NCBI GenBank assembly: GCA_015066975.1 | Contig: SVNI01000014.1 | Span: 1-32,237, forward strand | Direction: 5' to 3' | Length of the DNA: 32,237 nt | Source: Ruminococcus sp. | GTDB taxonomy: Bacteria > Bacillota > Clostridia > Oscillospirales > Ruminococcaceae | Shown here: positions 10,172 to 11,762 of the stretch, in pieces | Position numbering within the stretch: position 1 is the stretch's first letter | Layout of the letters: each line of letters opens with the position of its first letter | Program-made: the position numbers and the translations under genes | The notes under the pieces: generated by a model | Told to the model about the DNA's origin: nothing | The model's input: only the letters and a program-made list of their open reading frames with translations | Database searches by the model: none

Positions 10172-10927
10172 ATGAAATTGCAGGAAATCAGCGCGTTTGC
10201 AGGGTATTCGCTGAAAGGTCAGCGAAAAACAGCCAGGTTTATGGCTTTCAGCTATCTCGCTGTATGGCTGATGATGAAGACAATTCCGGATTTGACAGCA
10301 GGTGCGCTGATATTCCGGGAAGAAATACTTCCGGCGGATATCTTTTTCAGCCGGAATATGTTCTGGATGGCATTTATCATACTTTGGAATATGCTGAATT
10401 TCTGCATTCTGACTCCGATGCTGTGTGCTGTCTGCGGATGGTTTTCAGAGCAATTGGGTTTCGGCCGGAAGAAATGCTTTTTCGGGCGCGGAAAGCTTTA
10501 CTGGAAATCACTGTGGTTTTTTGGAAAAATCGCTGTCATACGGTTTCTGATGCTGTTTCCATTCGTGCTGGCCTGCTGGCTTGCCGAAAAAACTTTTGAA
10601 AAATCTGCTTTCATGGAAGATGCCGGAATCTGGCTGTTTCTAACGACACAATGTATTGTTGTAGCGGCCTGGACGGGGATTTTGTATCTTCGGTTTTGCA
10701 GCAATTTGATGGCTGTGCCGTTTTTGTTTCTAGAAAATTCGGATATTTCCGCTTTGAAAGCTCTGAAGTATTCCGGCCGGATTCTGGAAGGACGTCACAG
10801 GAAGCTGTTTTTGATTCTCTGCACAGGCTTGACTCTGCCGCGGACTGTCACTATGATGACTCTGTATCTGCAAATCAGGATAAGGGAATATTTTCAGGAG
10901 CAGGAAAAATGCTTGACTTTTTCGTAA
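10172..10927 (+). CDS. Integral membrane protein, possibly DUF975-like
   Basis: A 251-residue protein with about five hydrophobic spans (near 21-48, 63-90, 112-138, 153-178 and 211-233). I do not recognise it with certainty. The motif ALKYSGRILEGRHRKLFLI near residues 197-215, a basic stretch just before the last span, resembles the conserved part of DUF975-type clostridial membrane proteins. ATG 10172 follows AAGGGGG. The last 15 bases of the gene contain the -35 element of the promoter for the downstream RNA array, so coding and promoter sequence overlap there. Confidence 0.7.
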   Translation: MKLQEISAFAGYSLKGQRKTARFMAFSYLAVWLMMKTIPDLTAGALIFREEILPADIFFSRNMFWMAFIILWNMLNFCILTPMLCAVCGWFSEQLGFGRKKCFFGRGKLYWKSLWFFGKIAVIRFLMLFPFVLACWLAEKTFEKSAFMEDAGIWLFLTTQCIVVAAWTGILYLRFCSNLMAVPFLFLENSDISALKALKYSGRILEGRHRKLFLILCTGLTLPRTVTMMTLYLQIRIREYFQEQEKCLTFS

Positions 10928-10941
10928 ATTTATGTTATAAT
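10913..10941 (+). promoter_or_regulatory. Consensus promoter of the tRNA-like RNA array
   Basis: TTGACT at 10913-10918, a 17-base spacer and a perfect TATAAT at 10936-10941. A start about seven bases downstream would fall near 10948, right at the first base of the outer helix of unit 1 (10951). The -35 lies inside the upstream coding sequence. Confidence 0.8.
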
Positions 10942-10950
10942 CAGAAAAAA

Positions 10951-11081
10951 TCCGCCTGATGCAGAGCATTCAGATACTTCGACTTCTAATCGGCGTGTCA
11001 CCGGTTCGACTCCGGTCTGTGCTTGCACAGTAGCTCAGTGGGTAGAGCAGCATAATTCTGGTGCTGATATTCTCAGGCGGA
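10951..11081 (+). ncRNA. Unit 1: permuted tRNA-Arg(UCU)-like element
   Basis: Outer helix 10951-10959 with 11073-11081 (9 bp); second helix 10965-10974 with 11057-11065 (one bulge). In tRNA numbering, the anticodon-like loop CTTCTAA is at 10983-10989 with UCU at 10985-10987. The variable loop is 10995-10999. The T-arm is ACCGG-TTCGACT-CCGGT (11000-11016). The acceptor 3' strand (11017-11023) is followed at once by the acceptor 5' strand (11024-11030, 6 bp plus a T-T mismatch). TA is at 8-9, and the D-arm is GCTC-AGTGGGTA-GAGC (11033-11048). T-loop and D-loop bases needed for the tRNA elbow (GG, TTC) are intact. No CCA is encoded. Confidence 0.75.
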
Positions 11082-11084
11082 ATG

Positions 11085-11183
11085 TATCTGATGCAGTGTA
11101 TCGGTTACTTCGTGGGCGCATATGAGTAATGTTTACAGGGTTCGACTCCCTGCGCCTTGTTCCGGTGCGAGGATTCTCAGATA
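11085..11183 (+). ncRNA. Unit 2: reduced unit with a T-arm only
   Basis: Outer helix 11085-11091 with 11177-11183 (7 bp). Second helix 11097-11104 with 11162-11169 (8 bp including G-U pairs). TACTTC is at 11106-11111. The T-arm CAGGG-TTCGACT-CCCTG (11136-11152) has the same loop as unit 1. GGCG at 11115-11118 can pair with CGCC at 11153-11156, stacking on the T-arm like an acceptor. Acceptor hairpin and D-arm are missing; only nine bases separate the T-arm from the second helix. Confidence 0.65.
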
Positions 11184-11198
11184 ATAATCATGTCAGAA

Positions 11199-11338
11199 TC
11201 TGCCTGATGCAGGGTAGCAGTTACTTCATATAGTCCACGGCGGAGGTTATCGGTTTCAGTCCGGTCTGCTTTAAAAGCAGTAGTTCAATCCAGAACGCCG
11301 CCATTTGAAACATACTGCTGCTGATATTCTCAGGCAGA
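11199..11338 (+). ncRNA. Unit 3: permuted tRNA-Gly-like element with full acceptor stem
   Basis: Outer helix 11199-11207 with 11330-11338 (9 bp); second helix 11213-11221 with 11314-11322 (9 bp with wobbles). In tRNA numbering, positions 39-43 are GGCGG (11239-11243) and the variable loop is 11244-11248. The T-arm is ATCGG-TTTCAGT-CCGGT (11249-11265). The acceptor 3' strand CTGCTTT (11266-11272), a single A (11273) and the acceptor 5' strand AAAGCAG (11274-11280) give a perfect 7-bp stem. TA is at 8-9, and the D-arm is GTTC-AATCCA-GAAC (11283-11296). Positions 27-31 CCGCC (11298-11302) pair with 39-43. The D-arm resembles that of tRNA-Gly. T-loop and D-loop have lost elbow bases. Confidence 0.7.
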
Positions 11339-11405: not shown

Positions 11406-11434
11406 TTGACATTTTCCGGATTTTATGCTAAAAT
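11406..11434 (+). promoter_or_regulatory. Main promoter of the S10-spc-alpha operon
   Basis: TTGACA at 11406-11411 is perfect, the spacer is 17 bases, and TAAAAT at 11429-11434 carries a TGC extension. The combination predicts very strong transcription, fitting a ribosomal-protein operon. The transcript would start near 11441 and have a leader of about 320 bases. Confidence 0.85.
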
Positions 11435-11440
11435 ATATAA

Positions 11441-11762
11441 AGTCCAAGAAAATTGGATAACTAATATGCGCAGAAGCGGAAGGTTGCTGACGGTTTGTCA
11501 GGGAATTTCCGTGGAGTATGTCCGGTCATCAGAACCGGTCGGCAAGAAATGATGACACAGTATGTGCTACAGGAAGATAGTATTTCCTTTGTGAAATATT
11601 CTCCCTTTAGGTGTGACTGTGTGCCCGTTTGCCGGAATCTGCCAAAGATTGCCGGTTTTTGTATTGCTTAACCCACGATACACACGGAAACGGGAAAAAG
11701 CATCATCTCTGAAAACTGCGCCCCCAATTTTGATTTTTTTAAATTAAGGAGGCGAATTTGAA
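11441..11762 (+). promoter_or_regulatory. Structured leader of the S10 operon, probable regulatory element
   Basis: The untranslated region before rpsJ holds nested helices. CGGAA (11477-11481) pairs with TTCCG (11507-11511), enclosing CTGAC/GTCAG (11487-11491 with 11497-11501). CCGGT/ACCGG is at 11522-11526 and 11534-11538, in competition with GTCATCA/TGATGAC (11525-11531, 11550-11556). An 8-bp hairpin lies at 11579-11600, followed by a terminator-like hairpin. CGGCAA at 11540-11545 can pair with TTGCCG in either arm of that terminator, so a switch is possible. Known r-protein operons are often controlled by their own products through such leaders; which protein would bind here is not shown. 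Confidence 0.6.
11632..11660 (+). terminator. Attenuator in the rpsJ leader
   Basis: CCGGAATC (11632-11639) pairs with GATT and CCGG (11647-11655, one bulged G) and is followed by TTTTT at 11656-11660, about 100 bases before rpsJ. Because it lies between promoter and first gene, it would act as a conditional terminator. Confidence 0.55.

Follow-up and report, generated by a model that had tools for sequence, protein, structure and literature searches.

A probable tandem array of divergent bacterial Y RNAs with permuted tRNA mimics, set apart from the Ro60 gene in Ruminococcus sp.

The bacterial Y RNA YrlA mimics the D-, T- and acceptor arms of tRNA on top of a stem that tethers Ro60 (Rsr), with PNPase as a partner (PMC8394870), and its crystal structure superposes on tRNA given a circular permutation (PMC11472068). 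In D. radiodurans there is a precedent for Ro60 and a partner acting jointly on structured RNA (PMC8394870, PMC7790460), and the suggestion has been made that YrlA may inhibit an anticodon nuclease (PMC7790460).

We analysed a stretch of 32,237 nucleotides from the draft genome of Ruminococcus sp. (the window), in which an array of three tandem units is flanked by a 251-aa reading frame and the S10 operon. The features of this array and of the adjoining operon are as follows:

10913 to 10941, + strand: promoter-like site of the array, TTGACT-17-TATAAT (consensus scan, 11/12; kept in relatives)
10951 to 11081, + strand: unit 1, predicted Y RNA with a permuted tRNA mimic and, within it, an anticodon-arm-like hairpin (YrlA match, basal element)
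11085 to 11183, + strand: unit 2, predicted Y unit lacking a D-arm, with a T-arm on an acceptor-like stem as its head (same basal element)
11199 to 11338, + strand: unit 3, predicted Y RNA with a YrlA-like permuted tRNA mimic (YrlA match, basal element)
11406 to 11434, + strand: promoter-like site of the S10 operon, separate from the array (consensus scan)
11463 to 11545, + strand: S10-Clostridia leader (RF03136), separate from the array (Rfam, gathering level)

We read unit 3, with high confidence, as a bacterial Y RNA, the last of three in tandem, with paired ends that form the predicted Ro60 (Rsr)-binding stem and a YrlA-type circularly permuted tRNA mimic at its centre. This kind of RNA is known; here it occurs as a divergent array separate from the Ro60 gene. 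The evidence for this reading consists of the geometry, the covariation, the similarity to YrlA, the shared basal element and the co-occurrence with Ro60.

At the Rfam gathering level, the S10-Clostridia leader was the only match and the array had none. With a permissive threshold, unit 1 matched YrlA (RF02553) over the whole model (43.6 bits, E 3e-8), and unit 3 gave the second-best match of the whole genome (34.1 bits, E 1.1e-5). As both of these top matches remain below the YrlA gathering score of 69 bits, we call the units YrlA-like Y RNAs rather than members of RF02553. Their tRNA-like domains have T, acceptor and D arms in permuted order, and the succession of stem, T-arm, capped acceptor, D-arm and stem is that of RF02553 and of the Salmonella structure (PDB 6CU1). 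In the alignment, the internal loop of the basal stem is likewise of the AUGC type and contains UU, and the anticodon stem of unit 3 is formed, as in YrlA, by distant strands and continues into the Y stem. In contrast with YrlA, the array comprises three tandem units distant from Ro60, unit 1 has 17 inserted nt, resembling an anticodon arm and missing from the Rfam model, and unit 2 has no D-arm. In unit 2 (11115-11156), an acceptor-like stem surrounds the T-arm, and a 16-nt linker takes the place of the D and anticodon arms. Relatives of this unit are present in five genomes (G019, G026, G028, G034 and G061), and its resemblance to mascRNA is at chance level (15.9 bits, E 3.4).

Unit 3 has the following parts:

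11199 to 11207, + strand: 5' strand of basal stem 1, pairing with 11330-11338 (9 bp; covariation, 44 units)
11208 to 11212, + strand: TGCAG, conserved across 44 units
11213 to 11221, + strand: 5' strand of stem 2, pairing with 11314-11322 (9 bp)
11222 to 11227, + strand: TACTTC, conserved across 44 units
11239 to 11243, + strand: GGCGG, 3' strand of the anticodon stem, pairing with 11298-11302
11249 to 11265, + strand: T-arm ATCGG-TTTCAGT-CCGGT (covariation)
11266 to 11280, + strand: acceptor hairpin CTGCTTTAAAAGCAG, 6 bp closed by UAA (covariation)
11283 to 11296, + strand: D-arm GTTC-AATCCA-GAAC (covariation)
11298 to 11302, + strand: CCGCC, 5' strand of the anticodon stem, pairing with 11239-11243
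11323 to 11329, + strand: GATATTC, between the 3' strands of stem 2 and stem 1

When we scanned the window on both strands, the full permuted tRNA geometry turned up in unit 3 only (11239-11302), against a chance expectation of 0.03 per strand (60 Markov windows of equal length). Related units show compensatory changes in all four helices, namely the acceptor, T, D and anticodon stems, the last at five of five pairs in nine units. This covariation indicates that the fold is kept, as a mimic. The complete tRNA-like geometry in permuted order described in an earlier note on this DNA is therefore confirmed for the T-arm, the acceptor, the D-arm and the 5-bp CCGCC/GGCGG stem. Its perfect 7-bp acceptor counts too many pairs, since the 1-nt loop left over could not close; the hairpin has at most 6 bp and a UAA loop. 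In G026, the acceptor of the unit 3 ortholog has a GCAA tetraloop on 6 bp; the tips in related units are GAAA or GGAA, and the acceptor in G019 has 4 bp with a 6-nt loop. The 9-bp outer stem and the second 9-bp stem of unit 3 are not explained by a cloverleaf.

These outer parts belong to an element, stem - TGATGCAG - stem - TACTTC ... ATTCTCA - stem, found both in the array and directly downstream of Ro60, in this genome and seven relatives. Among 44 units from both kinds of loci, base pairing of the 5' and 3' ends gives a stem interrupted by a conserved internal loop (TGCAG/TACTTC/ATTC), and the basal stem covaries at seven of its nine pairs, the two innermost being invariant. The genome codes for a TROVE/Ro60 protein (546 aa, DNSGSA motif; 26.4 bits for a cut-off of 23), which matches a PDB TROVE chain with an E value of 1.4e-8. 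This Ro60 is divergent, and its AlphaFold model is poor (pLDDT 54). The array itself does not adjoin the Ro60 gene, which lies on another contig of the draft genome with basal-element units directly downstream. Within the genus, Ro60 occurs in 10 of 38 genomes and YrlA matches (E<=1e-4) in eight, seven genomes having both (p 7e-5, a nominal value because the genomes are related); in the wider class Ro60 is rare (5/291). One genome that is 77% complete (G019) has the array and no Ro60 that we could find, and two others (G014 and G024) have Ro60 and basal units and no YrlA match. In G025, a permuted unit lies directly upstream of a canonical Ro60 gene.

Similar associations were found further afield. 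The pattern of unit 1 matched 24 records of Paenibacillus, Cohnella and Gordonibacillus, one of Kineosporia and five of rumen Oscillospiraceae/Ruminococcus. A Ro60 frame is located beside the match in 22 of the 25 non-rumen loci, and the other three sequences end soon after it. The consensus of the loop from this search was excluded as evidence, as the pattern itself fixed those bases. Like the Ro60-adjacent Y RNAs of Paenibacillus, Cohnella, Kineosporia and viral contigs, unit 1 has TACTTCGACTNNNAATCGGCNTGTC and the permuted T/acceptor/D order; those units, however, are directly upstream of Ro60, whereas here Ro60 is on another contig.

The Ro60 loci of the genus have features of their own. 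Eight genus members share a strongly conserved Ro60 gene leader (CAGTTGTGGAATG ... AATATTTGTCAGTGTACGCCGTGAATGCTTTAA; L065:3355-3568, homologs L057-L063). It had no Rfam match in this genome and is possibly a cis-regulatory RNA. Downstream of Ro60, four loci (L058, L060, L062 and L063) harbour large Y-like units (200-330 nt), in which multi-hairpin heads top the same basal element.

The occurrence of the same basal units at Ro60 speaks against the idea that the array acts in cis, as a tRNA-like leader, to control the S10 operon. The array is directly upstream of the S10 leader in five genomes (G000, G026, G028, G034 and G061), but it precedes a different gene in two others (G019 and G008), and a promoter-like site and RF03136 leader belonging to the operon itself follow the array. 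We consider control of the S10 operon highly unlikely.

Still less probable is a circularly permuted tRNA gene, the transcript of which would be cleaved at the acceptor and religated within the anticodon loop into a functional tRNA. Such genes have precedents in algae and archaea (PMC3978253, PMC3218864), and unit 3 resembles them in the order of the tRNA halves. In favour of this reading are its full geometry in permuted order, unique in the window, and a core very near tRNA-Asp(GUC). Unit 3 differs from the algal and archaeal genes in its capped acceptor, the lack of CCA and the conserved outer stem. The acceptor strands are closed by tips of 3-4 nt here and in related units, so that the ends are not free for the addition of CCA. 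The T-loop, UUUCAGU, is altered, and ARAGORN gave no match at the array. In addition, the conserved basal stem occupies the would-be intron. The earlier note had proposed a rejoining after U33 into a glycine tRNA, which is not borne out: the capped acceptor leaves no room for CCA, and the proposed splice stretches enter the conserved basal stem, which is common to the units adjoining the Ro60 gene. Its caution that unit 3 may be no working tRNA was well placed.

We compared unit 3 with the tRNA genes that could be retrieved from the genome (30 loci plus neighbours, of 45 in total), the assignments being best matches and not proof of origin. From the D-arm to the variable loop, the core of unit 3 is nearest to tRNA-Asp(GUC), with a score of 20.0 against 12.7 for the best tRNA-Gly, and the two are identical at GAACGCCGCC and CACGGCGGAGGT. 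The D-arm by itself, thought earlier to be the usual one of tRNA-Gly, is nearest to tRNA-Ala(CGC) (12 against 9 for Gly-UCC). The assignment to tRNA-Gly by sequence was thus rejected. Among the tRNAs of this genome, other units with the topology of unit 3 come nearest to those for Met, Val, Pro, Ala or Gln; that related units resemble various tRNAs or are devoid of a D-arm also argues against a permuted gene. Unit 3, though tRNA-like and permuted, is almost certainly no tRNA gene.

Equally improbable is debris of a tandem tRNA cluster, that is, the T-arm and 3' acceptor strand of one gene followed by the 5' acceptor strand and D-arm of the next: weak YrlA matches in G035 (C41), G015 and G023 do fall at ordinary tRNA genes, but the acceptor strands of unit 3 pair with each other and covary, a covarying stem encloses the whole, and no tRNA genes were found at the array or its relatives. 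Because some of the weaker matches lie at ordinary tRNA genes, we did not base the main test on the looser YrlA count.

Among these Y RNAs, unit 1 is distinguished by a hairpin in the anticodon register:

10978 to 10994, + strand: anticodon-arm-like hairpin UUCGA-CUUCUAA-UCGGC (tRNA register, 4 pairs)
11000 to 11016, + strand: T-arm (YrlA alignment)
11017 to 11030, + strand: capped acceptor (YrlA alignment)
11033 to 11048, + strand: D-arm (YrlA alignment)

This hairpin is at the exact position of a tRNA anticodon arm, separated from the T-stem by a 5-nt variable loop. We surveyed Ro60-encoding viral contigs and a few genomes of the class, collecting units with the permuted T/acceptor/D order without using the loop sequence. 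This gave 79 distinct units with the TACT motif, the removal of near-identical units being the sole correction for relatedness. As in unit 1, a stem of at least three pairs is present in the anticodon register in 50 of these 79 Ro60-linked units, the TTC of the TACTTC motif contributing to the stem. U33 is found in 48 of the 50 hairpins and A38 in 40, and positions 34-36 make up 23 different triplets. Stem, U33 and A38 are combined in 38 units, compared with a mean of 1.1 and a maximum of five in 1000 shuffles. The topology of unit 3 occurs in 11 of the 79 units, and no unit has both topologies. In the literature searched, which stops short of the primary YrlA papers, we found descriptions of the D, T and acceptor arms only, and none of the anticodon-register hairpin or of two permutations.

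We tentatively propose that many Ro60-linked Y RNAs are complete tRNA mimics with an anticodon arm, in two alternative circular permutations that never coincide. The cut would be between the D and anticodon arms in the first, as in unit 1, and in the anticodon loop in the second, as in unit 3. The retention of C32-U33-NNN-R37-A38 with variable positions 34-36 suggests that varied 'anticodons' may be presented to anticodon-recognising proteins, candidate readers being anticodon nucleases, modifying enzymes and synthetases.

Two further observations concern the loops. Half of them (25/50) terminate in U36-A37-A38, as in ANN-decoding tRNAs that carry t6A. In viral loci such as L313, L192 and L154, the type of D-arm may track the triplet, with Gln-like D-arms accompanying CUG or UUG, as judged by eye only; such a match would point to the repeated capture of whole tRNAs.

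By analogy with described Y RNAs, we infer that the units are transcribed, bind Ro60 and dock PNPase or tRNA-recognising proteins through the mimic. The array would be transcribed from its own promoter-like site upstream of the S10 operon, although TTGACT-17-TATAAT in itself is not significant (three found for 2.1 expected in the consensus scan). Ro60 would bind the basal stems, and the tRNA-like heads would recruit or occupy tRNA-recognising proteins, or else PNPase as in D. radiodurans. Ro60 and the docked partner might then act jointly on structured RNA. With three different heads, i.e. an anticodon-bearing mimic, an acceptor/T minihelix and a YrlA-like mimic, a single Ro60 could form several complexes.

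A puzzling permuted tRNA is thus explained as a member of a known RNA class. That class appears to be richer than the Rfam model: some arrays stand alone, remote from Ro60, a single conserved basal stem carries heads of several kinds, and anticodon arms persist in the exact register of tRNA. If the anticodon loops are functional, the suggestion of an anticodon nuclease as a target (PMC7790460) would become directly testable.
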